Below, one piece after another: positions 29,415 through 43,606 of a DNA stretch of 64,000 nucleotides. The number at the start of each line of letters is the position of its first letter. The first letter of the stretch is position 1. A program made the translations under genes and the position numbers. Origin of the DNA: Lachnospiraceae bacterium (GTDB lineage: Bacteria; Bacillota; Clostridia; Lachnospirales; Lachnospiraceae); NCBI GenBank assembly GCA_017940415.1, contig JAGAYR010000045.1:1-64000 (forward strand), given 5' to 3'. Under the pieces are notes generated by a model, which saw only the letters and a list, made by a program, of their open reading frames with translations, was not told where the DNA came from and searched no databases.

Positions 29415-30596
29415 ATGAATAAGAAAATGACATCGGGGGAAATTGCAAAAAAGGCAGGCGTATCTCAGAAGGCAGTTCGTCTCTACGACGAGAAAGGTCT
29501 TCTGAAACCATCCGATTATTCCGAAGGGAATTATCGCCTTTATGATAAAGCGGCACTTCAGGTTCTTGAAAAGATCGTAGCTCTCAAGCAGATCGGTTTT
29601 TCTCTTGAAGAGATCAGAGACAATCTGGCTCAGGGAGAAGCATCAAATGTAGAGGAAGCACTCAGGATCCAGCTTAAGAACATGGAGGAGAAAAAATACC
29701 GCATCGAAAAAGTCATTTCCGCCATAAACAGAACATTTGACAGAAAGACCGGAGACCTTGACTGGGATGATGTTTCGGAGATGATTAAAAACATCAATCT
29801 TGATCAGTCTGCGGATGAAAGACATTGGGATGCTCTTAAGCATACGGCTCAGGAAGAGGACTGGTATGTTAAGATCTTCAGATCTTTTGACCTTAACCCC
29901 GGAATGAAGATCCTCGATCTGGGATGCGGATATGCCAAGCTCTGGAGAAATAACAGAGATGATATCCCGGAGAATACCAAGATCTTCGGATATGATGTTC
30001 ACGGAAGCTGGGCAGATGACTTTGAGAAATATCTGTCGGAAAACAAGGATGCTTTTCCAAAGGGCGTAAACATATCACTTACGTTTGACGATCTTGAAGA
30101 TGAGAGCGCATGGAAGAAAATAGCGAAGAATAAGGGATATGACCTGATCATAGCTCACTATATCAATTATGAGCTGAAAGATTCCGAATCATTCGTTAAA
30201 AGAGCAAGTAAGGTTCTCGGTAAAGGCGGGGTGTTTTCTTTTAACGCGGAAGCGGTCAGCGGATGGCATTATTTCTACAAGGAAATACTTAAAAATGCCG
30301 GATTGAATTCATCCTTTATCGATGAGATGGTAAATGCCGAACAATCGGAGCAGGACGCCCGCGATGAGATGCTTAAGAAGTACTTTAAGAAGGTTGATCT
30401 GATTACGATAGAAAATACCTGGCATTTTACGGAAGCGGATGAACTTTTCGAGAAGATGTGCGAAAGGTATTCCGGTCATCAGAAATACTTAAATGATAAC
30501 CGAAATAAGATCATAAAAGTATTTGAAGATGCAATAAGCAAAGACGGAGAGATAACTTATACTTACGGTTCTCTTTTCCGCCGATGTATGAAATAG
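29415..30596 (+). CDS. MerR-family regulator fused to a SAM methyltransferase domain
   Basis: A 393-residue fusion. Residues 5-75 are a MerR winged helix (SGEIAKKAGVSQKAVRLYDEK, then the NYRLYD wing) and about 75-125 the dimerisation coiled coil. From about 160 a class I methyltransferase domain follows, with motif I MKILDLGCGYAKLW, an FGYDVHGSW acidic-loop region and LGKGGVFSFNAEA. The usual effector pocket of drug-sensing MerR proteins is thus replaced by an enzyme fold that could sense SAM or a methylatable drug. AAGGAGG precedes ATG 29415. It probably autoregulates through the site at 29358 and controls the exporter at 19087-22687. Confidence 0.9.
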   Translation: MNKKMTSGEIAKKAGVSQKAVRLYDEKGLLKPSDYSEGNYRLYDKAALQVLEKIVALKQIGFSLEEIRDNLAQGEASNVEEALRIQLKNMEEKKYRIEKVISAINRTFDRKTGDLDWDDVSEMIKNINLDQSADERHWDALKHTAQEEDWYVKIFRSFDLNPGMKILDLGCGYAKLWRNNRDDIPENTKIFGYDVHGSWADDFEKYLSENKDAFPKGVNISLTFDDLEDESAWKKIAKNKGYDLIIAHYINYELKDSESFVKRASKVLGKGGVFSFNAEAVSGWHYFYKEILKNAGLNSSFIDEMVNAEQSEQDARDEMLKKYFKKVDLITIENTWHFTEADELFEKMCERYSGHQKYLNDNRNKIIKVFEDAISKDGEITYTYGSLFRRCMK

Positions 30597-31234: not shown

Positions 31235-31285
31235 TGGTAAAATAGAAGCGTGTGTTTCCTTAACCGGAACATACGCCTTTTTACA
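31235..31285 (+). promoter_or_regulatory. Promoter and 5'-end hairpin of the lipid operon
   Basis: An extended -10 element TGGTAAAAT (31235-31243) predicts a transcript start near 31250. At once a hairpin follows: GCGTGTGTT (from 31249) with AACATACGC (ending near 31276) and then CTTTTT. It may be a terminator for the upstream acetyltransferase gene, a promoter-proximal attenuator, or a 5' stabilising stem. Confidence 0.45.
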
Positions 31286-31311: not shown

Positions 31312-31920
31312 ATGAGCAGTTTAAAGTTTTTGGCGGATACGTTAGTGAAGATGTATGTCACTTTGCTTCCTGCCATCATTGCCGGAATACTCGTCATGGT
31401 CTGGTGCAAGACGGGGTTGATGAAGTTCGCAATGAAGCCCATGGATATGGGCAAAAATTTCCGCGACGGAAAAAGGATATTCGGTGACAACAAAACCTGG
31501 AAGGGTTTTATCGGATATCTGATCTTTGGTACGGTCTCAACTGTCATCTGGGGCGCTGTTTGCCATGGCACTGGGATCGATCATCTGAATTATTTCTATG
31601 TTCATCATGAGAACACATTTCTTTTCAATCTGATGACGGGGTTTCTCCTCGGACTCGGATATGCACTCTTTGAATTACCCAACAGCTTTCTTAAGAGAAG
31701 ATTGGATATAACTCCCGGGAAGACCACATCGGGAGCTTGGAGAGTATTTTTTATTTTCCTTGATCAGGCAGATTCGATTTTCGGATGTGCACTAGTGGTG
31801 TGGTTATTCTATGACCTGGGAATCGGATTATACCTTCTCTATGTTCTGGTTGGTGCATTCACGCACATCATCATGAACATGCTGTTGTATGTATGTAAAC
31901 TCAGAAAAAACCCGTTTTAA
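31312..31920 (+). CDS. CarS-like (CDP-archaeol synthase family) CTP:lipid cytidylyltransferase
   Basis: A 202-residue integral membrane protein with about five helices. The cytoplasmic segment MGKNFRDGKRIFGDNKTWKGF and the later FELPNSFLKRRLDI...DQADS block match the CarS/DUF46 family. Archaeal CarS converts an ether-lipid phosphatidic acid analogue and CTP to CDP-archaeol; bacterial CdsA does the same for phosphatidate. Here it heads an operon also holding a CDP-alcohol phosphatidyltransferase and a PSD homologue, so it most probably supplies their CDP-lipid. The lipid tail is not known. It ends 15 nt before the start of the next gene. Confidence 0.85.
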   Translation: MSSLKFLADTLVKMYVTLLPAIIAGILVMVWCKTGLMKFAMKPMDMGKNFRDGKRIFGDNKTWKGFIGYLIFGTVSTVIWGAVCHGTGIDHLNYFYVHHENTFLFNLMTGFLLGLGYALFELPNSFLKRRLDITPGKTTSGAWRVFFIFLDQADSIFGCALVVWLFYDLGIGLYLLYVLVGAFTHIIMNMLLYVCKLRKNPF

Positions 31921-31935
31921 AATATGGAGAAAGAC

Positions 31936-34443
31936 ATGATCGTAAAACTTGCACTTGATGAAAAAAGAGAAGAGAAGCTGGGTAATAAAGGAAAATTCCT
32001 CCTTCAGATGAAAAAAGAGGGATTTAATGTTCCCGGCGGATTCATTCTTGATACGGATGTATATGATGAGGTTATGGCTGCAAACTCTATTGATTTAACT
32101 GTTTGCAATCAACTTAAGAAATTAAACAAAGATAATGTTAAAGAAATCTCGGAAGCGGTTAACGAGCTGCTTGATAAAGTAAAAATACCTGCGGATATTT
32201 CATCACAGATTGAAAAGCTGTCGGACGGAGATAAACTTTACGCCGTAAGAAGCAGCGGAAATATGGAGGATCTGGAAGAGTATTCTTTTGCGGGACAGTA
32301 CGATACTTTTCTCAATGTAAAAAAGGAAGAGATCGGAGAAAAGATTATCGCTTGCTACAGATCCATGTTCGGAGAAGTGCTTCTTCAGTATGTTGCAAAT
32401 AACGGTATCGATGCCCCTTCCATGAAAATGTCGGTTGTGGTTCAGGAGATGGTAGACGCTACCCTCAGCGGAATCTGTTTCACCATAGATCCGGTAAACG
32501 GTTTTGATAAGGAAATGCTTATCGAAGTTTCGGAAGGTTTGGGTGAAAACATCGTAAGCGGAAAAACCGCACCCGAACAGTACTTCTATGATTGGTATGA
32601 CAAAAAAGAAGTCAGAAGAAATAAAGACAATAAGTTCCTTAATGAAGAAACAGTAGAAAAATATGCCGGAGTGTTTTCGGATATTCAGCATTTCTTCGGA
32701 TATCCCTGCGATATAGAGTTTGCAATAGCTGATGAAAAACTCTATATTCTTCAGGCCCGCAGGATCACCAAGATCGGATACAACGGAATAACGGATATGT
32801 GGACCACTGCGGATTTCAAAGATGGAGGTGTATCCGCAACAGTATGTACTCCCTATATGTGGAGCCTTTATGAATACATATGGGAGTTTGCTCTTCGCTC
32901 ATTCATAGTGAAATCGGAAATATTGAAAGATGAAGAGCTTCCTAAGAAACTTGGCGAGATGTTCTACGGACGTCCCTACTGGAATATGTCCGCAGTTAAA
33001 AAGGCCATGAGCCAGGTCATCGGATATAAGGAAAGAGAATTTGATAACGAGTACGGAATCATCGGTGATTATGAAGGAGACGGACAGACCACAAAGATCA
33101 CTCCTTCTTCCGTATCCAGGATGATCAGAATAGTTATCAAGCAGAGCAAGATCCTAAAAGGAAGAAGAGAGAATAACCAAAGATACAAGGATGAACTCCT
33201 GGATCAGTATTATAAATATAAGGAAAAATATGATGCGGGAAAGATCGAGAATATAGAAAAAGATTTCTATAACATCACGAAAAAGACTTATCTCAGAAGT
33301 GAGACAACATATTTCTGGCAGATATTTATCAACACGATTCATCAGTCACTTTATAAGGACAGCCTGCTTAAATATGTGACGGAGAGCGAATATCTGTCTC
33401 TTCTGGGAAATATAGACAATATTTCACATCTGCTTCCCTTCTATGAAATGTGGGATGCTACCAGACAGATACGTAAAGATGAGAAGGCATTTTCTTATTG
33501 GAAAGAAAAGAGCACACAGGTTATTGCAAAGGAATTATCGTCCAAAGAAAATTTCATGCCTGCGGTTAAAGATATCATCGATAAGTACGGATATCACTCC
33601 GATAAAGAATTGGATATAACTTATCCCTGCTATTATGAAGAACCGGAAACGGTAATTCAGATGGTGAAGGACATGGTTATCCTGGAAGACTCCTATTCCC
33701 CTCTGGAGGATAAAGAGAACGGTCACAAGATGTACCTTGAGGTGTTTGAGAAAGTAAAAGGCAAGGTATCCGAGCGTACATTCCGTAAGGTTGAGAAGAA
33801 AGTATCCGGAATGAGGAAGATGCTTTGGTGGAGAGAAGAGTTCAGAGACGTATCCACCAGATTCTATTACATGCTCAGAGTATATACCATGGAGTATGCA
33901 AAGCATCTTGTTCAGAAAGGGGTTCTGAAAGATGCGGGAGATGTCTGGTTTTTGAAAGTCGGGGATCTTTGGGATTATATCGATGGCAATAATACCGGTG
34001 ATGACCTCAGAGAAATCATCGGTAAGAACAGATATTATTACGATTGCTACAGAAATTATATAAGCGATAACGAGATAGGAACCGTATTCTCCAGACACAG
34101 AGACGATGCGAAAATTAAGGACTCTTCAATAAAGGGTCTTGGTGCAAATAACGGATGCGTTACCGCAACAGCAAGAGTGATCGAAGACTTTACGCAGATA
34201 GACAGATTGCAGGAGGGGGATATTCTGGTCACCAGATTTACCGACACAGGATGGACTCCCAAGTTTGCGATCCTGTCGGGAATCGTAACCGAGTATGGCG
34301 GAATACTTTGTCATGCAGCAATCGTTTCGAGAGAGTATGGAATCCCTGCAATCGTATGCTGCAAGGATGCAATGCAAAAGATCAGAGACGGGCAGACTGT
34401 TACCATAGACGGAAGTACCGGAACCGTAACGATAGTTAAATGA
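31936..34443 (+). CDS. Rifampin-phosphotransferase-like / PEP-synthase-like dikinase 1
   Basis: An 835-residue protein with three parts: an N-terminal ATP-grasp PEP/pyruvate-binding domain (about 1-285, with YAVRSSGNMEDLEEYSFAGQY and ILQARR), a long middle region (about 290-740) without similarity to known domains, and a C-terminal swivelling phosphohistidine domain (about 750-835) with GGILCHAAIVSRE carrying the catalytic His. This order matches rifampin phosphotransferase: ATP phosphorylates the His, which passes the phosphate to a substrate held by the middle domain. There is no TIM-barrel PEP domain. GGAG gives a start at 31936; ATG 31924 is too close to it. Context suggests a lipid, polyprenol or polyol substrate (inference). 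Confidence 0.85.
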   Translation: MIVKLALDEKREEKLGNKGKFLLQMKKEGFNVPGGFILDTDVYDEVMAANSIDLTVCNQLKKLNKDNVKEISEAVNELLDKVKIPADISSQIEKLSDGDKLYAVRSSGNMEDLEEYSFAGQYDTFLNVKKEEIGEKIIACYRSMFGEVLLQYVANNGIDAPSMKMSVVVQEMVDATLSGICFTIDPVNGFDKEMLIEVSEGLGENIVSGKTAPEQYFYDWYDKKEVRRNKDNKFLNEETVEKYAGVFSDIQHFFGYPCDIEFAIADEKLYILQARRITKIGYNGITDMWTTADFKDGGVSATVCTPYMWSLYEYIWEFALRSFIVKSEILKDEELPKKLGEMFYGRPYWNMSAVKKAMSQVIGYKEREFDNEYGIIGDYEGDGQTTKITPSSVSRMIRIVIKQSKILKGRRENNQRYKDELLDQYYKYKEKYDAGKIENIEKDFYNITKKTYLRSETTYFWQIFINTIHQSLYKDSLLKYVTESEYLSLLGNIDNISHLLPFYEMWDATRQIRKDEKAFSYWKEKSTQVIAKELSSKENFMPAVKDIIDKYGYHSDKELDITYPCYYEEPETVIQMVKDMVILEDSYSPLEDKENGHKMYLEVFEKVKGKVSERTFRKVEKKVSGMRKMLWWREEFRDVSTRFYYMLRVYTMEYAKHLVQKGVLKDAGDVWFLKVGDLWDYIDGNNTGDDLREIIGKNRYYYDCYRNYISDNEIGTVFSRHRDDAKIKDSSIKGLGANNGCVTATARVIEDFTQIDRLQEGDILVTRFTDTGWTPKFAILSGIVTEYGGILCHAAIVSREYGIPAIVCCKDAMQKIRDGQTVTIDGSTGTVTIVK

Positions 34444-34456
34444 TAGGAGAATGATC

Positions 34457-35071
34457 TTGAAAAGAATCGTTGGATTTTGGAACCCGTCGGTAATCCTTAC
34501 ATATATCGGAATGAGCTTTGCGGTAGCAGGAATGTTTCTGGCTGTAAGTTCGAAGATCAATTACAGTTTTATCTGTCTTGTTCTTTGCGGGATATGCGAT
34601 CTGTTTGACGGCAGCGTAGCCAGGAAGTTTAAGAGAAGCGATGAAGAAAAAGCATTCGGAATAGAACTTGATTCACTTGTTGATGTTATCAGCTTTATCG
34701 CACTTCCTGTCACTATCTTTTTGAATATAGGATTTGTGACACCGGTTCATCTCATCCTGTACATAATCTATTCCATAGCCGGAATAGCAAGACTGGGTTA
34801 TTTTAACGTAATCGATGCGGACGGCGAGGGCCCGGTAAACCATTACACAGGTCTTCCCATCACATATGCGGCGCTCGTATTTTCAATCATGTATCTGTCT
34901 GTGAACATACTTACGGAAAATGCATTTGTGATCGTATATACACTTTCAATGGCTGTTGTGACAGTCCTTGAAGTATTGAAGATAAAGATTGCAAAACCAA
35001 AAGGACTTGCTTATGTGTTTTTCGGAGTGTTGGCCATAGCTGTGATCACAATGTACATAATTACAATATGA
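34457..35071 (+). CDS. pssA: CDP-alcohol phosphatidyltransferase (PssA-like)
   Basis: A 204-residue integral membrane enzyme with the CDP-alcohol phosphotransferase signature D-x2-D-G-x2-A-R-x8-9-G-x3-D-x3-D, read here as CDLFDGSVARKF through FGIELDSLVD. It condenses a CDP-lipid with an alcohol, most probably serine, because a decarboxylase follows directly. TTG 34457 with GGAG at 7 nt is preferred over ATG 34451, which touches the ribosome binding site. About six helices. The same pair works in bacteria (PssA/Psd) and archaea (archaetidylserine synthase/decarboxylase), so the headgroup but not the tail can be predicted. Its TGA overlaps the ATG of psd. Confidence 0.85.
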   Translation: MKRIVGFWNPSVILTYIGMSFAVAGMFLAVSSKINYSFICLVLCGICDLFDGSVARKFKRSDEEKAFGIELDSLVDVISFIALPVTIFLNIGFVTPVHLILYIIYSIAGIARLGYFNVIDADGEGPVNHYTGLPITYAALVFSIMYLSVNILTENAFVIVYTLSMAVVTVLEVLKIKIAKPKGLAYVFFGVLAIAVITMYIITI

Positions 35072-35928
35072 AGATATACGACAGGAAGACAAAAGAGTAT
35101 GAGGAAATTGTTCAATACGGACAAGGAGCCTTGAAATTTCTGTACGGAAATTTCTTTGGAAGAGTGCTTCTTAGAATCGCCGTATCCCCTTTTGTATCGT
35201 GTATATACGGAAAAGTAAATTCGGGCAAAGCCAGCAGGAAGAAGATACCGGAATTTATAGAATCAAACAAGATCAAGATGGAAGACTTTGAGGACAGAGA
35301 ATATATTTCCTTCAATGACTTCTTCACCAGAAAGCTTCGAGACGGAGCAAGGATTCCGGACCCGGGTGAAAACAGACTGATCTCTCCTGCAGATGCCAAA
35401 CTGCTTATTTATGATATAGACGACAAAACACGTATAGATATAAAAGGCAGATCTTATTCAATGGAAGAAATCGTGCCGGGCATGAAAGATCTCGGAGAAT
35501 ATGCCGGAGGAAAATGCCTTGTATATCGTCTTTGTGTGGATGATTATCACAGGTATTGTTTTATAGATGACGGAACGCTGACCAAGTCGAAATTCATAAA
35601 AGGAAAACTTCACACCGTAAGTCCTCTGTCTTCTGCTTATAAAATATATAAGGAAAATTCAAGAGTGATAAACATTCTGTCTACGGTTCATTTCGGAGAA
35701 GTGATCCATATCGAAGTGGGTGCTCTTTTGATCGGTAAGATAGTAAACAGAGATGTTAAGAGTTTTAAAAAAGGGGAAGAAAAAGGTTTTTTCGAACCCG
35801 GAGGTTCTACCATCGTACAGCTGTTTAAGAAAGATGCTGTAAGGATGGATGAGGATCTGCTCAGGATGAGCGCGGATCATATCGAAACAAAAGTTTTGTA
35901 CGGAGAAGGAGTCGGAACCACATGCTGA
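35068..35928 (+). CDS. psd: Phosphatidylserine-decarboxylase family enzyme
   Basis: A 286-residue PSD homologue that turns a serine head group into ethanolamine. The autocleavage site is GGST (Ser about 247), which would become the pyruvoyl group of the small alpha chain. Upstream motifs include SPADAKL, DYHRYCFIDDGTL and VHFGEVIHIEVGALLIGKI. Length is typical of Firmicute PSD. It follows the CDP-alcohol transferase with a 4-nt overlap and itself overlaps the UbiA gene by 7 nt. The archaeal archaetidylserine decarboxylases belong to the same family, so the product could be an ethanolamine ester of an unusual lipid. Confidence 0.9.
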   Translation: MKIYDRKTKEYEEIVQYGQGALKFLYGNFFGRVLLRIAVSPFVSCIYGKVNSGKASRKKIPEFIESNKIKMEDFEDREYISFNDFFTRKLRDGARIPDPGENRLISPADAKLLIYDIDDKTRIDIKGRSYSMEEIVPGMKDLGEYAGGKCLVYRLCVDDYHRYCFIDDGTLTKSKFIKGKLHTVSPLSSAYKIYKENSRVINILSTVHFGEVIHIEVGALLIGKIVNRDVKSFKKGEEKGFFEPGGSTIVQLFKKDAVRMDEDLLRMSADHIETKVLYGEGVGTTC

Positions 35929-36821
35929 AGAGAATGCATATATATATGAAGGAAAGATATCCGCTTATTTCAAGACTGATACTCGGACTCATTGTCTTTC
36001 TTGAAATACATTTCATCATTCTTCTTAACGAGGGAGTTACTCAGTTTAAGATAGGCATGCAGGAAATAACCGGTGCATATACGGTTTTTGCGTTTCTGCT
36101 TTGGCTGAGGATTGCGGATGACCTGAAGGATTTTGAAACGGATAAGGTATTGTTCCCTGACAGACCTTTGGCAAGAGGCGCCGTATATAAGAAGGATGTA
36201 ATGATTCTGTGCGTATTTTTTGAGATCATAGCGGTTGTATTAAATGTAATTTACATGAATAACCTGCTGTTCTTTGGCATCCTCTACGGTTACGGATATC
36301 TCATGAGTAAGTGGTTTTTTCAAAGAGCCAAGATTCAGCCTTCACTTCCCCTTGCTCTGGTCACCCACAATCCTGTTCAGATGTTTGTGAATCTGTATAT
36401 TATTTCTTTCACGGTCATAAAATATGATCTTCGTGCGGTTTCACTTACCACATGCATGACCTTATGGACCCTCTATTTTCCTGCACTTATATGGGAAGTT
36501 TCCCGTAAGATAAAAGCTCCCAAAGACGAAAATGATTACACCACGTATTCGAAACTGTTCGGATATAAAAGATCTACACGCTTTGTCATGATACTGACTA
36601 TTGTGGATATAATCACAAATTTCATTCTCGTCTTCAGACTTAATAAGATCTCGATTGTAGTATTATTTCTCCTTGTTTCCTGGATGACCTGGAAGTTTAT
36701 TCAGTACATGAAAGATCCTGAGAAATTTGTTCTTGTTGAAAAAGTCGAAAGATACACATATCTACAGGAATCAACAATGCTGCTTACAATAGTGGCTTTC
36801 CTGCTTTTCGGAAGGATATAG
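35922..36821 (+). CDS. UbiA-superfamily prenyltransferase
   Basis: A 299-residue protein with about eight helices. The first Asp-rich motif is DDLKDFETD (residues 66-74), matching N/D-D-x2-D-x3-D, followed by PDRPLARG. The second conserved loop is WEVSRKIKAPKDENDYTTYSK (about 191-211), in place of the canonical DxxxD. UbiA enzymes move a prenyl chain onto an aromatic or, in DGGGP synthase, onto a glycerol phosphate. No quinone-pathway genes are nearby. Between a CDP-lipid pathway and a dikinase, it probably attaches an isoprenoid chain to a lipid precursor; acceptor and chain length are unknown. Confidence 0.82.
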   Translation: MLKRMHIYMKERYPLISRLILGLIVFLEIHFIILLNEGVTQFKIGMQEITGAYTVFAFLLWLRIADDLKDFETDKVLFPDRPLARGAVYKKDVMILCVFFEIIAVVLNVIYMNNLLFFGILYGYGYLMSKWFFQRAKIQPSLPLALVTHNPVQMFVNLYIISFTVIKYDLRAVSLTTCMTLWTLYFPALIWEVSRKIKAPKDENDYTTYSKLFGYKRSTRFVMILTIVDIITNFILVFRLNKISIVVLFLLVSWMTWKFIQYMKDPEKFVLVEKVERYTYLQESTMLLTIVAFLLFGRI

Positions 36822-36822
36822 G

Positions 36823-39081
36823 ATGTACGGCAGTAAAGCAGATAATTTAATAAAATTGAGAGATGCGAGTTTTAACGTGCCTGCATTTGAGATAATTGAA
36901 TTCGATGAAGAATATGACGAGAAAAGATTCGAATCTCACAGCGGATCCGTAGCCGTAAGAAGCTGCTGCAATCTCGAAGACGGAGCGGATCAAAGCTTTG
37001 CCGGACAATTCTCTACATATTTGAATGTTAAGCCTGATGAGATATCCGGGAAAATAACCGCGTGCAGAAATTCCGTTAATACCGACAGCGTTATTGCGTA
37101 CATGGATAAGTATGGGATAAAACCCGAAGAACTCAAAATGTGCGTCATCGTTCAGGATATGGTGGATGCGGATAAGGCAGGGGTAATATTTACTTCCAAT
37201 CCTCAGGGGCTGCTTAATGAATCCGTTATCGCCTGTGCAAAAGGTCTTGGTGAGGGAGTAGTTTCAGGCTCTTCGGATACGACAACATACTATTATCATC
37301 AGACGGATAAATTATATTATTACGAAGGAAAAGAAGATCTTCTTTCAAATGATGAGATCGAAGAGCTGATCAAAGTATCATCCGAGATTAAAAATGTTTT
37401 GGGAGAGTATCTGGATATTGAGTTTGCATTTTCTAATGGCAAACTCTACATATTGCAGGCAAGACCCATCACCACATTAAAGGGAACAGATCCGCTCATT
37501 CTGGATAACAGCAATATAGTGGAAAGCTATCCCGGATTGTCTCTTCCTCTTACTGTTTCTTTTGTACATATGGTTTACAGCGGTGTGTTCAGAGGAGTGA
37601 GCAGAAGAGTTCTTAAGAATGAAAAAGAATTAAATAAGCATACCGATGTGTTTAACAATATGGTTGGCGATGCAAACGGAAGGATGTACTACAAGATAAG
37701 TAACTGGTACACGGTTTTGAAATTCCTTCCTTTTAACAAGAAGATAATTCCCGTATGGCAGGAGATGCTGGGAGTTAAGAATAAATCGGTAAGCAATAAA
37801 GAGGTCAGACTTAATCCCTGTGTACGTTTCATGACGTATGTTAACTCCTTCTATGAGCTTGTTTCTGTTCCGAGACATATGAAGGCTCTCGAAAGAGAAT
37901 TCATACGTGTTAACGATCATTTCTATAATACATATGATCCGGATATGGATCTTAAAGATCTGATCGCATTGTATGACGAAGTAAGAGAAAAGCTTTTAAG
38001 TATCTGGGATGTGACTCTTCTCAATGATATGTATGCTTTTATCTATACCGGTCTTGTAAAGAGCAGGCTTCGAAAAAAATGCGGCCGGGATGATGCTTAT
38101 ATAAATAAGTATATATCCGGTATATCGGACATCGAGAGTATGAAACCGGTAAAAGCACTTATCGAACTTGCTTACAAAAAGGATGAGCTCTCAGATGAGG
38201 AGTATGACAAGTGCCGGCTGGAATATATCAGATTATACGGTGACAGAAATCTTGAAGAGTTAAAACTGGAAAGAAGAACCTTCAGATCCACGCCGTCTCT
38301 TCTGGATGAAAGAATAGCTGAATACAGAAAAGATCCGGAAAGGCTTAAAAAAATGTATTCGGATATTAACCGGAATGAACAGGTGCGTATAAAATCCGAT
38401 CCCTTAACACGGTTCCTTGGAAAAAGATGTGCTGTGGGAATCGCGGGAAGAGAAAAATCAAGACTTAACAGAAGCAGAATATATGGCATTGTAAGACTTA
38501 TCTTCGATACCATGGGTGAAAGATTTGCAAAAAGCGGTTTGATAGAAAAGCCGGGTGACATATATTATCTTACGGTAGAAGAAGCATTTTCCATGGCAGA
38601 TACACCGAAGGATATGAAATCTGTGGTCACGGACAGAAAAGATGCATATTCCATATATAAGAGGCTTCCTGCTTATACAAGACTTATCTTCGAAGATAAA
38701 GAATTTGATAAGAGACACACGAGTGTTAATTCGTATAAGAAGAAAAACGCCGAGAATGTTCTTCAGGGAGTTCCCTGTTCGGGAAGCATTGCCGAGGGTG
38801 AAGCTCTTGTGATTTCTTCCCCCGATGATGCGCATGATGTTAAGGATAAAATACTTGTTACCAAGATGACTGATCCGGGATGGGTATTTTTACTTGCTAC
38901 TGCTAAGGGAGTTATATCGGAAAAGGGATCTTTATTATCGCATACGGCGATCATCTCAAGAGAATTGAATATCCCGTCCGTTGTAGGTGTCGAAAAGCTG
39001 ACGGATACGATCAAAACGGGAGACATGATCCGGATGGACGGCGGAAGCGGAAGAATAGAGATCATAGGGAGAGCCTTATGA
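36823..39081 (+). CDS. Rifampin-phosphotransferase-like / PEP-synthase-like dikinase 2
   Basis: A 752-residue relative of the dikinase at 31936. The ATP-grasp domain (about 1-220) includes VAVRSCCNLEDGADQSFAGQF and YILQARPITTL, but lacks about 50 N-terminal residues present in the first. The middle region (about 230-660) differs strongly. The C-terminal phosphohistidine domain has GSLLSHTAIISRELNIPS with the catalytic His about 707. The catalytic pieces are intact, so it should phosphorylate a different substrate from its partner. It starts 1 nt after the UbiA gene and ends in a 4-nt overlap with the GNAT gene. Confidence 0.83.
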   Translation: MYGSKADNLIKLRDASFNVPAFEIIEFDEEYDEKRFESHSGSVAVRSCCNLEDGADQSFAGQFSTYLNVKPDEISGKITACRNSVNTDSVIAYMDKYGIKPEELKMCVIVQDMVDADKAGVIFTSNPQGLLNESVIACAKGLGEGVVSGSSDTTTYYYHQTDKLYYYEGKEDLLSNDEIEELIKVSSEIKNVLGEYLDIEFAFSNGKLYILQARPITTLKGTDPLILDNSNIVESYPGLSLPLTVSFVHMVYSGVFRGVSRRVLKNEKELNKHTDVFNNMVGDANGRMYYKISNWYTVLKFLPFNKKIIPVWQEMLGVKNKSVSNKEVRLNPCVRFMTYVNSFYELVSVPRHMKALEREFIRVNDHFYNTYDPDMDLKDLIALYDEVREKLLSIWDVTLLNDMYAFIYTGLVKSRLRKKCGRDDAYINKYISGISDIESMKPVKALIELAYKKDELSDEEYDKCRLEYIRLYGDRNLEELKLERRTFRSTPSLLDERIAEYRKDPERLKKMYSDINRNEQVRIKSDPLTRFLGKRCAVGIAGREKSRLNRSRIYGIVRLIFDTMGERFAKSGLIEKPGDIYYLTVEEAFSMADTPKDMKSVVTDRKDAYSIYKRLPAYTRLIFEDKEFDKRHTSVNSYKKKNAENVLQGVPCSGSIAEGEALVISSPDDAHDVKDKILVTKMTDPGWVFLLATAKGVISEKGSLLSHTAIISRELNIPSVVGVEKLTDTIKTGDMIRMDGGSGRIEIIGRAL

Positions 39082-40139
39082 AACTTGTTAGAGTAGGATC
39101 CGAGAAATCAAATATCAAAAGATTTGTAGATCTTCCAAAGAAGCTGTATTCCTCTAAGGATAATATGGAAAGTGCTTCTCAGATGAAATCTTTGCTGGAA
39201 GGAACTCATCATTTATCCAAGTATTTCAATCTGGATGCATATCTGATCCTCAGAGATGATGAGACGGCCGGAAGATTTGCAATAACCACATATCCGGATG
39301 ATACAACCGCATATCTGGGATTTTTCGAATGCATCAACGATAAAGATGTATCCTCTTTCCTTTTTTCGGAAGCGGAGAAAATAGCCAAAGAAAAAAAGTG
39401 TTCCGTTATCGTCGGACCGGTTGATGCTTCTTTTTGGCTTAAGTACAGGTTGAAGATCAATAATTTTGATCTGCAGCCTTATACGGGAGAGCCTTATAAC
39501 AAGGACTACTATCTTGAGCTGTTCCAAAACAGCGGATATGAGATCAGTGAGCATTATACTTCCAGTGCATTCAGGTCCGTGGGTGAAGATTACGTAAATG
39601 AGAAATTCGAAAACAGATATAAGGAATTTCTGGCACAGGGATATAAAATAGAAAGCCCCAAGACCGAAGAATATGAAAAAGCCGTGGAGGAAGTATATAC
39701 ACTTATTACTGAGCTTTACAGTGATTTTCCGATATATAAAAACGTTTCCAAAGAAGACTTCTGCGAAATGTTCAAAAGTTATAAGACCATTATGAACATG
39801 AGCATGACTAAGATGGCTTATTACAACGGAAAGGCAGTTGGATTTTATATAAGCCTTCCGGATTACGGAAACAGAGTATATCATGCGGGGCTTCTTGATG
39901 TTCCGGGTATTCTGAAGACAAGAAAGCATCCTGACAGATATGTAATGCTGTACATGGGCGTGGATCAAAAACACAGAGGCCTGGGAAAAGCTCTTGTATA
40001 TGCGATCATGAAGGAGCTTATGCAAAGCGGACTTCCAAGCATAGGAGCTCTTGCAAGAGACGGTAAGGTTACACAGAATTATGCAGAGGAAGAAAAGACG
40101 AGCATTTATGAATATGTACTTCTGAAGCATGAATTATAA
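39078..40139 (+). CDS. GNAT-superfamily protein of double-domain length
   Basis: A 353-residue protein. The C-terminal half has a GNAT pattern: MAYYNGKAVGFYIS strand, then MLYMGVDQKHRGLGKALVYAIMKEL with the acyl-CoA loop H-R-G-L-G-K. The N-terminal half (FNLDAYLILRDDETAGRFAITTY, then IVGPVDASFWLKY) reads like a second, degenerate GNAT fold. This length resembles acyl- or aminoacyl-transferring GNAT relatives more than small-molecule acetyltransferases. The next gene encodes an acid:AMP ligase, so it may transfer an activated acyl group to the amine of an ethanolamine-type head group. That is inference. Confidence 0.75.
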   Translation: MKLVRVGSEKSNIKRFVDLPKKLYSSKDNMESASQMKSLLEGTHHLSKYFNLDAYLILRDDETAGRFAITTYPDDTTAYLGFFECINDKDVSSFLFSEAEKIAKEKKCSVIVGPVDASFWLKYRLKINNFDLQPYTGEPYNKDYYLELFQNSGYEISEHYTSSAFRSVGEDYVNEKFENRYKEFLAQGYKIESPKTEEYEKAVEEVYTLITELYSDFPIYKNVSKEDFCEMFKSYKTIMNMSMTKMAYYNGKAVGFYISLPDYGNRVYHAGLLDVPGILKTRKHPDRYVMLYMGVDQKHRGLGKALVYAIMKELMQSGLPSIGALARDGKVTQNYAEEEKTSIYEYVLLKHEL

Positions 40140-40159
40140 GTATTTAAAGGGGAGCAAAT

Positions 40160-41626
40160 ATGTCAAACGTACTTGAAGAATATCTTAAAGAAGACTATTC
40201 AAAATGGGGTGCAAGAAATTATCTCTATGAGAAAAAAGACGGAATAAATTACACTCCCATCACGTATGGCAGCTTTATAGAGAAGGTTAATTACCTTGCA
40301 GCTTACCTGAAGGAAAAAGGCTTCTCCGAAAAGAATATCGGAATATACGGACCTAACAGTATTGAGTGGATGATAAGCGATATATCCATCATGTGCTATG
40401 TAGGATGCGGTGTTGGTTTTAACAAAGACTGGTCCTATGATAATGTTGTCTATTCCATCAAAAAGAGTGAACTCTCCTGTCTTATTTATGATGAAAGACA
40501 AAATGAGATAATGGATAAGATCAAAGAAGAATTTCCGGATCTTACCTATATATCAATACAAAAAGATTTTGAAAGATGTATTGAAGAAGGAAAAAATCTC
40601 TGCAAGGAACTGTTTTCTCCGGAGGCAAGACCGGGAAACGTGCCTGCGAAGGTGGTTTTTACAAGCGGTACCACGTCCTTTCCCAAAGCGGTTCTCCTGT
40701 CAATCAATAATGTATTCTCGGGATGGCGCTCTCTCGGAAGAAGGATAAATGCCGGCACGGAGGATGTATGTTATCTCTTCCTGCCCCTTAATCACACCTA
40801 CGGATCCATATACAATTTTATTTATTCCCTGGTGTTCGGATATGAAATATATCTGGCCGGCAGTATTAAAGAGATGGCTCAGGAGATGATGGCAATTCAC
40901 CCCACGATCTTTTCCGGAGTTCCTCTTGTGTTCACAAGATTTTATGAAGCATCAAAAGCTATGGGAGTTGGCCTGGGAATGCTCCTTGGCGGCAGGATGA
41001 AATACCTGTTCTGCGGCGGTGCCAAGCTTACCCCGGAGATCAGAAAAGCATATGCGGATGAAGGAATGTATATGATGAACGCGTATGCTTTATCGGAAAC
41101 TTCTTCCGGATTCAGTATTGATTATCCCGGTGAAGAGGATATGGAAAGTGTCGGAACCCTGTTTGAGGATGTGGATGCGGTTGTTCTTGATCCTGATGAG
41201 GAGGGATACGGAGAACTTGCGATAAAGGGAGATAATATTTTCCTCGGATATTTCAAGGATGAAGAGGCTACGAAAGCAGCATTTAACGAGGAGGGTTATT
41301 TCCTTACCGGAGATATCGGAACCATAAAGAATAATAAGGTGTACCTCAGAGGAAGAAAAGATACCCGTATAACTCTTTCCAACGGTGAAAATATATCCAC
41401 AAAAAGGATCGAAGAAAGAGTTAAGGAGATTCACGAGAGTATCGTGGCAGTAAAGGTATATATGAGGGGAGATCTTCTCTGTACCGATATATATGTGAAG
41501 GATTCCGAGGCACCTTCGGATCCTGCAGCCTGGGACGGCCTTATCGAAGAACTGAACAAAAATGTTTCCAGGTTTGAAAGAATCGGAAAATATAACATCA
41601 TCAGCAGTACGCAGATGTTAAAGTAA
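40160..41626 (+). CDS. AMP-forming acyl/aryl-acid ligase (ANL superfamily)
   Basis: A 488-residue adenylate-forming enzyme. Motifs: VVFTSGTTSFPKAV (P-loop, A3), YALSETSSG (A5), ELAIKGDNIFLGYF, FLTGDIG (A7) and LRGRKDTRI with NGENIS (A8), plus a C-terminal mobile domain. The final catalytic lysine region is short, ending in SSTQMLK. It activates a carboxylic acid as acyl-AMP, probably onwards to CoA. It is the eighth and last gene of the lipid operon, 20 nt after the GNAT gene, with GGGGAG before ATG 40160. A terminator follows. The acid substrate cannot be read from the sequence. Confidence 0.87.
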   Translation: MSNVLEEYLKEDYSKWGARNYLYEKKDGINYTPITYGSFIEKVNYLAAYLKEKGFSEKNIGIYGPNSIEWMISDISIMCYVGCGVGFNKDWSYDNVVYSIKKSELSCLIYDERQNEIMDKIKEEFPDLTYISIQKDFERCIEEGKNLCKELFSPEARPGNVPAKVVFTSGTTSFPKAVLLSINNVFSGWRSLGRRINAGTEDVCYLFLPLNHTYGSIYNFIYSLVFGYEIYLAGSIKEMAQEMMAIHPTIFSGVPLVFTRFYEASKAMGVGLGMLLGGRMKYLFCGGAKLTPEIRKAYADEGMYMMNAYALSETSSGFSIDYPGEEDMESVGTLFEDVDAVVLDPDEEGYGELAIKGDNIFLGYFKDEEATKAAFNEEGYFLTGDIGTIKNNKVYLRGRKDTRITLSNGENISTKRIEERVKEIHESIVAVKVYMRGDLLCTDIYVKDSEAPSDPAAWDGLIEELNKNVSRFERIGKYNIISSTQMLK

Positions 41627-41638
41627 TATATGCTTTAA

Positions 41639-41680
41639 AAGCGGCCCCATGTCCGCCGGACATGGGCCGCTATATTTTTA
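41639..41680 (+). terminator. Intrinsic terminator of the lipid operon
   Basis: GCGGCCCCATGTCC (41641-41654) pairs with GGACATGGGCCGC (41658-41670), one bulged C, 3-nt loop, followed by an A/T-rich tail with T5. Confidence 0.85.
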
Positions 41681-41760: not shown

Positions 41761-42207
41761 ATGGATTTAGAAAAAACATATGACAAAATATACCGGTATG
41801 TGTACTTCAGGGTAGGTGACCGGATGATCGCGGAAGATATAACCCAGGAATCATTTCTGAGATTTATAGGCAAATACGGAAATTTTCACGATTATGAGAT
41901 CAAATATCTGTACACTATCGCCAGAAATTTATGTATCGATGAATATCGCAGGATAAAACCCGAACCTATCACTGAAGAGATCGAAGATAAGGCGGGCATG
42001 GGCGGAATCTCGGAAGAATGTATTATGGTCAGACAGGCCTTGGACAAACTGTCCGAAGAGGACAGAGAGATTATCCTGCTAAAGCATGTCAACGGAGAAA
42101 ACATTGCAACCATAAGTAAGGCCCTGGGTATTTCCAGATTTGCACTTTACAGAAAGATCAAAAATGCCGAAGACAGACTCCGAAACGAACTGGAGGTGGA
42201 AGAATGA
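41761..42207 (+). CDS. ECF-type RNA polymerase sigma factor
   Basis: A 148-residue sigma factor with only regions 2 and 4. Region 2 includes DKIYRYVYFRVGDRMIAEDITQESFLRF and a YLYTIARNLCIDEYRR segment; region 4 is LDKLSEEDREIILLKHVNG...ISKALGISRFALYRKI. It directs RNA polymerase to a small regulon, probably including its own operon. A GGGAGG lies 14 nt before the ATG, a rather long spacing. The next gene, a membrane protein that overlaps it by 4 nt, is likely to hold it as an anti-sigma factor. Confidence 0.9.
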   Translation: MDLEKTYDKIYRYVYFRVGDRMIAEDITQESFLRFIGKYGNFHDYEIKYLYTIARNLCIDEYRRIKPEPITEEIEDKAGMGGISEECIMVRQALDKLSEEDREIILLKHVNGENIATISKALGISRFALYRKIKNAEDRLRNELEVEE

Positions 42208-42920
42208 AAAAGAATGAATTTAACAATCTCATAAATGAAGCATTCGCCGCTCCCGAACCGGAACACAAAGAAGAGTTTATAAGAAATCTTCGTCCCAGAG
42301 AAATAGGGACTATCGGAATGTTATGGGGACAGATGCCGTATATCAGTCCGGTAGCATGGATCATATCGGTTGCCATAACTGTTTTGGCGATAGCAGGAAG
42401 CATTCTCGGAATAAAAGATACCGAGCTTTACATAGCCTTGGCAATGCCTTTTACCGCAGCTGTCTCGGTTATCGAAACTCAGAGATCAAAGAGATTCGGA
42501 ATGTCGGAGCTTGAGATGGCAACAAGATTTTCGCTGAGAAGTGTTGTGTTTGCCAGAATGACTATTCTGGGATTTGTATCGGCACTTATGCTTTTAATAA
42601 TCGCTCCGGTCATTGCCATTTCATTGGGCGGGGAAATCATAGTGACCGCAGTGAGAATTCTTATACCTTATCTGATCACCATGGTCATCGGCCTTCGTAT
42701 CGAAAGAAGTACAATCGGAAGAAACAATGGTATCGCTTCTCTTGTTATCGCAGGGGTATCGGCGACCTTTGTGGCATGGTCATATCAATTGGAAGAAAAC
42801 ATATTTTTGCAATATGAGGTATTTACAGGATCGTACGGAATAGTTACAGCTGCCGTATTACTTGCTCTGATGTTTGCAGAGCAGTGGAAGATCGTAAATA
42901 ACGTGGAGGCTTTTGCATGA
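42204..42920 (+). CDS. Membrane protein, probable anti-sigma/regulatory partner
   Basis: A 238-residue protein with a soluble N-terminus of about 45 residues and about six membrane helices. The N-terminal segment FNNLINEAFAAPEPEHKEEFIRNL is suitable for sigma-factor binding. No zinc anti-sigma HxxxCxxC motif is visible, so a sigma-binding role rests on position only. It is translationally coupled to the sigma gene and to the ABC ATPase that follows; it might also be an ABC-linked permease subunit. Confidence 0.7.
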   Translation: MKKNEFNNLINEAFAAPEPEHKEEFIRNLRPREIGTIGMLWGQMPYISPVAWIISVAITVLAIAGSILGIKDTELYIALAMPFTAAVSVIETQRSKRFGMSELEMATRFSLRSVVFARMTILGFVSALMLLIIAPVIAISLGGEIIVTAVRILIPYLITMVIGLRIERSTIGRNNGIASLVIAGVSATFVAWSYQLEENIFLQYEVFTGSYGIVTAAVLLALMFAEQWKIVNNVEAFA

Positions 42921-43606
42921 AATTAACAGTAGACAGGATTACTAAACAATATAAAAACAAGATAGCGGTGGACCGTATGTCATTTGAACTTACTCAGGGC
43001 GTGACCGGTCTGCTCGGAGCAAACGGTGCGGGTAAGACCACCCTTATGAGAATGATGTGCGGAATACTTAACCCCACAAGCGGCGAGATAAATGCTGACG
43101 GGATAGCCGTAAATACGGAAAACTACCGCGCTCTTTTGGGATACCTTCCTCAGGATTTCGGATACTATCCCGAATTTACCGCCCGGGAATTCCTGGAGTA
43201 TATGGCCGCATTAAAGGGTCTGGAAAAGAAAGAAGCTAAGGACAAGACCACAGAACTTCTCGAGCTTGTGGGATTGTCCGATGTTGCAAGGAAGAAAATG
43301 AAGACTTTTTCCGGCGGAATGAAACAAAGAGTGGGCATTGCTCAGGCTCTCCTTAACGATCCCGCAATACTTATCCTGGATGAGCCCACTGCGGGACTTG
43401 ATCCCAAAGAAAGAGTAAGATTCAGGGAACTTATCGAAGAGCTGGGCAAGAAGTCGATTGTTCTCCTTTCCACCCATATCGTATCGGATATTGAGCATAT
43501 CGCGGATAAGATAATCATGATGAAGGACGGCAGTCTGATCTGGCAGGGAAAACAGACCGATGTTGAGGGAGATCTGGAAGAGTTCTATCTTAAAAAGTTT
43601 GAGTGA
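42917..43606 (+). CDS. ABC transporter ATP-binding protein
   Basis: A 229-residue ATPase with Walker A GANGAGKTT, Q-loop LPQDFG, signature FSGGMKQRVGIAQAL and Walker B ILILDEPTAGLD, in the order of the ABC-2/drug-export class. It pairs with the permease at 43629. It overlaps the preceding gene by 4 nt, so sigma factor, membrane protein, ATPase and permease form one operon, possibly induced by envelope stress. Confidence 0.93.
   Translation: MKLTVDRITKQYKNKIAVDRMSFELTQGVTGLLGANGAGKTTLMRMMCGILNPTSGEINADGIAVNTENYRALLGYLPQDFGYYPEFTAREFLEYMAALKGLEKKEAKDKTTELLELVGLSDVARKKMKTFSGGMKQRVGIAQALLNDPAILILDEPTAGLDPKERVRFRELIEELGKKSIVLLSTHIVSDIEHIADKIIMMKDGSLIWQGKQTDVEGDLEEFYLKKFE

Follow-up and report, generated by a model that had tools for sequence, protein, structure and literature searches.

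The window analysed here, a 64,000-nucleotide (nt) stretch of Lachnospiraceae bacterium contig JAGAYR010000045.1 (assembly GCA_017940415.1), carries at positions 31312-41626 eight genes that form a genuine lipid operon, conserved in relatives and apparently undescribed. The part of it that would supply the head group is readable, and the UbiA and dikinase part would build the core. Our interpretation, for which we regard the chances as evenly balanced, is that the operon is dedicated to a membrane lipid other than ordinary phosphatidylethanolamine (PE), namely an N-acylated, prenyl-containing amino-lipid. It mixes archaeal-like, bacterial and ceramide-type enzymes and may lead to an undescribed lipid class. 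The gene set, its conservation and co-occurrence across genomes, an exchange of kinases beside one of its genes, and the family relationships of its proteins are read directly from the sequences.

Gene organization and conservation

All eight open reading frames (ORFs) lie on the + strand, with successive gaps of +3, +7, -4, -7, +1, -4 and +20 nt. We refer to them as carS, peps1, pssA, psd, ubiA, peps2, gnat and acs; their Pfam matches are, in that order, PF01864, PPDK_N with PEP-utilizers, CDP-OH_P_transf, PS_Dcarbxylase, UbiA, PPDK_N with PEP-utilizers a second time, Acetyltransf_1, and AMP-binding. A terminator hairpin followed by T tracts stands after acs (41640..41671, + strand; -25.7 kcal/mol, z -3.4, 1/200 shuffles as good). 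Another terminator-like hairpin, with a T run after it, lies between a small GNAT gene upstream and carS (31248..31276, + strand; -14.6 kcal/mol, z -3.8, 0/200 shuffles as good). The eight genes are predicted to be on a single transcript. The ORF map and the hairpin computation confirm the preliminary description of this locus as tightly packed same-strand genes with a terminator at the end, and its family assignments were upheld by Pfam and NCBIfam, with refinements for pssA, carS and the dikinases.

Loci were collected by searching an alignment of seven UbiA proteins against one-genome-per-species contigs, which gave 249 relatives. The best 80 of these were kept and, with nine more from a survey of 246 genomes of the order, make up a set of 89 loci (labelled L; genomes are labelled G). 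L014 and L074 have identical UbiA and are probably one locus entered twice. The complete eight-gene set was present at 41/89 loci, including those of P6A3, AC2028 and Butyrivibrio XPD2006 (isolates by their record titles), and many of the other loci end at a contig edge. Gene order was counted with a strict ORF choice at 86 loci, the three distant ones (L018-L020) being left out. The exact eight-gene order was found at 33/86, which is a lower bound because overlapping genes are dropped by the ORF choice (L064 loses pssA in this way) and many contigs end within the operon; a further 11/86 had the same order minus pssA. No core gene was on the wrong strand at any of the 86 loci. Median gaps for the seven common neighbour pairs ranged from -7 to +14 nt, whereas outside the operon the median distance was 144 nt on the upstream side (67 loci) and 90 nt on the downstream side (55 loci), and the flanking genes differ between loci. 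The operon is thus discrete and conserved in this gene-neighbourhood survey, and the order and strand counts reject the reading that the genes are scattered in relatives.

Within the operon, carS and peps1 were neighbours at 67/67 loci having both, and ubiA and peps2 at 78/81. Both pairs are intact even at L017, a locus whose gene order has otherwise changed. These adjacencies suggest that the operon acts as two sub-units, one of carS with its kinase and the other of ubiA, peps2 and gnat, to which pssA, psd and acs are added. Among 67 loci with carS, peps2 and gnat, 15 were without pssA, 6 without psd and 11 without acs, partly owing to contig ends; the absence of pssA and psd at some loci argues against the head group as the constant part. 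At L043 (8533-16343) additional ORFs break up the operon, and one of them contains a transposase-type domain (PDDEXK).

In the order survey, strong UbiA matches (391-413 bits) were found in 7/246 genomes, and CarS matches of at least 47 bits in exactly the same seven. We took 16 further CarS matches (26-33 bits) as CdsA cross-hits given their frames of 261-300 amino acids (one of 651), with G005 alone checked directly. The UbiA survey used a limit of E 1e-20, and one genome that it missed (G229) was recovered via BtaA (see below); distant UbiA proteins were surveyed below full sensitivity in these genomes, which are also mutually related, and the Fisher values for BtaA depend on that survey. 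In a phylum sample, only the source genome was positive (1/398), and in the family of G026 1/24 genomes was positive.

CarS and an exchange of its neighbouring kinase

The carS gene (31312..31920, + strand) encodes a CarS-like protein, a putative CTP:lipid-phosphate cytidylyltransferase. It matches PF01864 at 78.1 bits (cut-off 22), and its best PDB match is Aeropyrum pernix CarS (5guf, E 2.3e-9). The best NCBIfam model is CDP-archaeol synthase (NF003114), at 88.2 bits and below the cut-off of 148. An ELPNS[FY].KRR motif occurs in 73/73 CarS proteins. Canonical CdsA was present alongside CarS in 15/15 genomes tested, and we reject CarS as the sole CDP-lipid synthase on this basis. Excerpts of a published account state that archaeal CarS favours isoprenoid substrates and Escherichia coli CdsA phosphatidic acid (PMC9385802).

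The gene that follows, peps1 (31924..34443, + strand), encodes a rifampin-phosphotransferase-type dikinase. It is present at 68/73 carS loci, none of which has a DgkA-type gene. At the remaining five (L012, L013, L015, L073, L092), peps1 is missing and a DgkA-type gene immediately precedes carS; three of the five DgkA-type proteins were scanned, and all match PF01219. On the UbiA tree (69 peps1 rows, 5 DgkA rows), the kinase label needs two changes that are forced by supported branches, and a single peps1/DgkA change was found in 0% of 200 bootstrap trees. This count depends on the comparison made: it is two when DgkA loci are compared with peps1 loci, and one when they are compared with BtaA-type rows only. 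The replacement of peps1 by DgkA in at least two exchanges, together with its adjacency to carS, suggests that peps1 does the job of DgkA and is a probable lipid-alcohol kinase that supplies CarS.

Both dikinases have PPDK_N first and PEP-utilizers last, as in rifampin phosphotransferase (RPH). A swivel histidine motif ([SC]H..I..RE) is present in both window proteins and at 66/72 peps1 and 80/84 peps2 loci. The family that the preliminary description had given them was upheld; the name 'PEP synthase' was rejected, since the rifampin phosphotransferase entries 5fbs, 5hv1 and 5hv2 match best, and the first dikinase is probably a lipid kinase. Against the rifamycin-inactivating model NF041857 the two window dikinases score 326.7 and 207.8 bits, below the cut-off of 999. 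An additional dikinase gene stands upstream at L091.

UbiA and its dikinase partner

The ubiA product (35922..36821, + strand) belongs to a distinct clade of the UbiA superfamily, with 36 bits to Pfam UbiA (cut-off 34.2) and 398 bits to NF010118 (cut-off 443). Residues R63, D66, K69, D70, D74, E192, R195 and K196 are invariant in 40/40 aligned proteins. The nearest PDB sequence is a DGGGP synthase (6m31, E 1.8e-4), matched over residues 41-139 only. Excerpts of PMC9385802 give the DGGGP synthase motifs as D66-x3-D70, Y125-x5-K130 and a third Asp motif (Methanocaldococcus jannaschii numbering). The first aligns with window residues D70 and D74, conserved in 40/40. Window residues Y124 and K130 have the spacing of the second (K in 29/36 CarS-type rows) but are three residues off in the alignment, and we therefore do not equate this spacing with the second motif.

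The neighbouring peps2 (36823..39081, + strand) encodes the second RPH-type dikinase, the proposed UbiA partner (NF004882, 830 bits, cut-off 850; PDB 5fbs, E 1.9e-97). A DNSNI.ESY motif is found in peps2 at 81/84 loci and in four dikinases of the BtaA type. The association of UbiA with a dikinase may be older and wider than either of the gene sets described here. On a Streptomyces clavuligerus plasmid, a 'hypothetical' protein with 16% identity to the UbiA of the window retains all eight residues and adjoins a dikinase gene. The product of that gene is one of two Streptomyces dikinases without a match to the dikinase motif patterns. That plasmid (L149, 11409-18818) carries consecutive genes of AfsA-like, ICMT-like, dikinase and UbiA-like type. 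In [Eubacterium] yurii (L097, 9986-13188), UbiA and the second dikinase occur without the other operon genes.

Head-group and acylation genes

The pssA gene (34451..35071, + strand) encodes a CDP-alcohol phosphatidyltransferase for which we propose serine transfer (PF01066, 51.7 bits); among NCBIfam models, that of archaetidylserine synthase matches best (83.7 bits, cut-off 240). The psd product (35068..35928, + strand) is of the phosphatidylserine-decarboxylase family, with a GGST motif (PF02666, 161.8 bits; NF001941, 269 bits, cut-off 371). Outside the operon, both the source genome and P6A3 carry another PssA-PSD pair; that of the source genome is on contig C9, with 36% and 38% identity to its counterparts in the operon. 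PSD was found in 13/14 CarS-bearing genomes, in 0/2 BtaA-type genomes and in 1/3 with neither (G028), and was not found in E. yurii. The product had been described as CDP-activated and ethanolamine-headed: the CarS-PssA-PSD series is consistent with this, although pssA and psd are among the optional parts.

The gnat product (39078..40139, + strand) is a putative N-acyltransferase, and matches PF00583 at 23.4 bits (cut-off 20.7). When the window GNAT was searched against plasmids with tblastn, 20 records matched, ten of which are listed at 20-25% identity. We opened eight neighbourhoods of these distant kin, seven of them annotated. Four appear to be sphingolipid-type by reading (Roseomonas, P. 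veronii, Rubrobacter, Aureispira) and three not (Ensifer, Vescimonas, Chloroflexota); the Prevotella one was without annotation. None of the eight operon genes is serine palmitoyltransferase-like, the rest of the genome not having been searched for such a gene. CerS, the ceramide N-acyltransferase, is itself a GNAT protein. Excerpts of PMC11324152 put CC_1154 forward as the N-acyltransferase for ceramide synthesis in Caulobacter. For the GNAT of the window, N-acylation of an amine is predicted. The last gene, acs (40160..41626, + strand), encodes an AMP-forming acid ligase (PF00501, 167.6 bits) that we propose as the acyl supply for GNAT; the nearest PDB sequence is a malonyl-CoA synthetase chimera (4gxr, E 2.8e-27). 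As for the earlier description of a prenyl- and/or acyl-modified lipid, its prenyl side is suggested by a single line of evidence, the UbiA family.

A sister gene set with BtaA

BtaA is an enzyme of betaine-lipid synthesis. A distant UbiA (23-28% identity) is present in three genomes of the order and marks a sister gene set, arranged at L018 as UbiA, dikinase, DUF3419 (BtaA), kinase-like membrane protein, GNAT and AMP ligase. The identical six-gene order occurs at L137 (G229) and at L115, which lies on a Roseinatronobacter sp. S2 (Alphaproteobacteria) plasmid (523-8507; two genes annotated hypothetical and one DUF3419). In G154 the sister genes are divided over two contigs. At L019 a Condensation-domain protein and other ORFs intervene, and no GNAT or ligase of the sister type was seen within 20 kb. 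The L020 gene first labelled peps1 is really a fragment of a BtaA-type dikinase.

DUF3419 was found in 4/246 genomes, i.e., the three with distant UbiA and G229, all of which have UbiA, a dikinase and at least part of the remaining sister set; clear CarS and DUF3419 were found together in 0/246. The UbiA proteins of the two sets are homologues at the profile level (E 2.6e-24), as are the GNATs (99.8%, E 4.3e-28), and the dikinases are 31-32% identical, with DNSNI.ESY common to both. We take the sister-set membrane protein to resemble phytol and dolichol kinases, a likeness read from its motifs. Compared with CdsA, it gives a modest profile match (77% over 73 columns), and the members scanned match no Pfam or NCBIfam model. 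As side observations, an AadA-type aminoglycoside adenylyltransferase-like gene (L019, 4202-4960) lies between the dikinase and BtaA genes, and ORFs resembling trp genes (by reading) lie beside the sister set at L137.

Proposed pathway and alternative interpretations

In the pathway that we propose, the UbiA-family enzyme and its partner peps2 would build a prenyl-bearing lipid alcohol, which peps1 (or DgkA) would phosphorylate. CarS would then activate the lipid phosphate using CTP, PssA would add serine to the CDP-activated lipid, and PSD would convert the serine head to an ethanolamine head. The AMP ligase would activate an acid, and GNAT would join this acid to an amine, in the simplest case that of the ethanolamine head. 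For the sister set, we propose that BtaA replaces the CDP route and adds a homoserine head, which also has a free amine, to the same kind of core. All substrates, the order of the steps, the prenyl core and the head-group N-acylation are predictions from sequence. For the core, the sequences are consistent with UbiA forming both bonds, with attachment of a single prenyl chain, or with a scavenged donor.

If this proposal is true, a set of gut and rumen bacteria carries a lipid class, for which we found no name, made by a module with exchangeable head-group chemistry, and RPH-type dikinases, known for phosphorylating rifampin and phenols, include a lipid-kinase branch. The operon would also provide a concrete case in which to test whether Bacteria that lack the known first step of the archaeal route form isoprenoid lipids. 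A stronger version, which we consider rather improbable, is that gut Clostridia have a third route across the lipid divide. They would need no GGGP synthase to produce isoprenoid ether lipids of an archaeal-like type: an atypical UbiA and RPH-type lipid kinases would assemble a prenyl-glycerol alcohol, this would receive a CDP-derived ethanolamine or a BtaA-derived homoserine head, and a ceramide-synthase-like acyltransferase would cap the amine. One kind of core module would serve two head chemistries across phyla.

Several points weigh against a dedicated prenyl amino-lipid. No third D-x3-D is conserved in the 40 UbiA proteins (an E-x-x-R-K is found in 40/40 near the expected place, outside the stretch matched to 6m31), so that normal diphosphate chemistry is not assured. 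GGGP synthase (PcrB/PF01884) was found in 0/15 genomes at E 0.001, with the same search positive in 7/14 controls, which leaves the step that forms the first ether bond in archaeal lipids without a known enzyme here. One trans-prenyl synthase was found in each of 14/15 genomes and two in E. yurii; with one per genome, no dedicated prenyl donor is evident. The peps2 genes of L012, L013 and L015 are without the DNSN motif. CarS was not found in G647, G649, G654 and G657, whose loci are also without it (incomplete assemblies are possible), and neither CarS nor PSD was found in the E. yurii genome despite its UbiA and peps2. On the head-group side, the operon PSD is the only PSD found in six genomes (G199, G160, G247, G248, G249, G644) and may also make ordinary PE there. 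In G199, G160, G248 and G249 the operon PssA is the sole CDP-alcohol enzyme besides a PgsA-like one, and G028 carries PSD as one of three genomes with no operon. Between the two sets, the ligases resemble each other at the superfamily level only. Lastly, the sister set has a CTP-kinase-like protein though BtaA needs no CDP-lipid, which would fit a prenol kinase better.

This last point leads to prenol salvage, which we regard as unlikely. Here a scavenged prenol (e.g., phytol) would be phosphorylated twice, by peps2 and by the other kinase of the set (peps1, DgkA or the protein resembling phytol and dolichol kinases), and UbiA would attach the resulting prenyl diphosphate to a glycerol lipid, with the head group and N-acyl steps unchanged. 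Complete operons of both kinds do have two kinase-like proteins, even the BtaA kind, and the lack of a dedicated prenyl synthase would be expected under salvage. Many of the 80 locus titles name rumen or herbivore-gut sources, but this gut bias is sampling bias too. The strict adjacency of peps1 to carS (67/67) and the presence of only ubiA and peps2 in E. yurii argue against salvage, and the phytol-kinase likeness is the motif-based one described above, with its modest CdsA match and no family model for the members scanned.

A second alternative, which we find quite unlikely, is an ordinary PE operon with accessory genes, in which CarS would be a second CdsA and the other proteins would modify PE (e.g., to N-acyl PE) with no new core lipid. 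PssA and PSD are family-typical, GNAT and the ligase alone could yield N-acyl PE, and the six genomes with a sole PSD point the same way. However, pssA and psd are absent at 15 and 6 of the 67 loci, the source genome and P6A3 hold both a second PssA-PSD pair and canonical CdsA, and the related core occurs with BtaA, without PSD in the two such genomes searched. A phenolic lipid, in which UbiA would prenylate and peps2 phosphorylate an aromatic to give a membrane-anchored aromatic rather than a glycerolipid, is highly improbable: dikinase kin characterised in excerpts of PMC12167813 phosphorylate phenols or rifampin, and many UbiA enzymes prenylate aromatics (PMC9385802, in excerpts), but CarS, DgkA, PssA, PSD and BtaA are all glycerolipid-type, and no aromatic-biosynthesis family was found among the core genes, the inserted and flanking ORFs being only partly annotated.

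Neighbouring genes and additional records

Upstream of the operon, the window holds a MerR-type regulator that by reading is fused to a methyltransferase-like domain (29415-30596), and similar ORFs precede the operon at L021, L026 and L032. Directly past the terminator (41761-43606) are ORFs resembling an ECF sigma factor, a membrane protein and an ABC ATPase. The sigma factor is a weak candidate for regulator of the operon, as such a gene was within 1.5 kb on the same strand at only 6 loci. Three records titled Fibrobacter or Saccharibacteria (L071, L084, L090) carry the operon and nest among Clostridia in the UbiA tree, so mis-binning is likely. The completeness of the source genome is 84%. 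A scan of viral contigs gave no match, nor did a plasmid search with the window UbiA as query.

Comparison with known systems

In agreement with the preliminary description, no pathway with this gene set appeared among the titles and abstracts of the literature matches listed. The eight-gene and BtaA sets are both undescribed among the open full-text titles and abstracts listed, subscription papers and preprints lying outside that coverage. The BtaA betaine-lipid system shares the DUF3419/BtaA protein with the sister set and has none in the window operon; it differs from the sister set in that the Roseinatronobacter operon annotation lists no N-methyltransferase.

RPH and other small-molecule dikinases (e.g., HpeHI; PMC12167813, in excerpts) have an ATP-grasp domain first and a histidine swivel last, in common with the window dikinases, which differ in falling below the family cut-off and in their lipid context. 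Bacterial sphingolipid clusters (PMC11324152 and PMC9386255, both in excerpts) combine an N-acyltransferase (CerS) with an acyl-CoA synthetase-type ligase, as the operon does; in place of serine palmitoyltransferase-like or CerR-like genes, however, the operon has UbiA and the dikinases.

The archaeal phospholipid pathway (DGGGPS, CarS, archaetidylserine synthase and a decarboxylase) resembles the operon in its UbiA enzyme, CarS family, PssA-like protein and PSD. The operon differs from it in having no GGGP synthase in the genome and no conserved third Asp motif, and in its NCBIfam scores below cut-off, and its two dikinases, GNAT and AMP ligase have no counterpart there. Excerpts of PMC7852524 describe FCB bacteria as likewise having archaeal-lipid-like genes beside normal bacterial ones. 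There, GGGP and DGGGP synthases occur together, whereas in the operon hosts, where GGGP synthase was not found, CarS and the dikinases are present.

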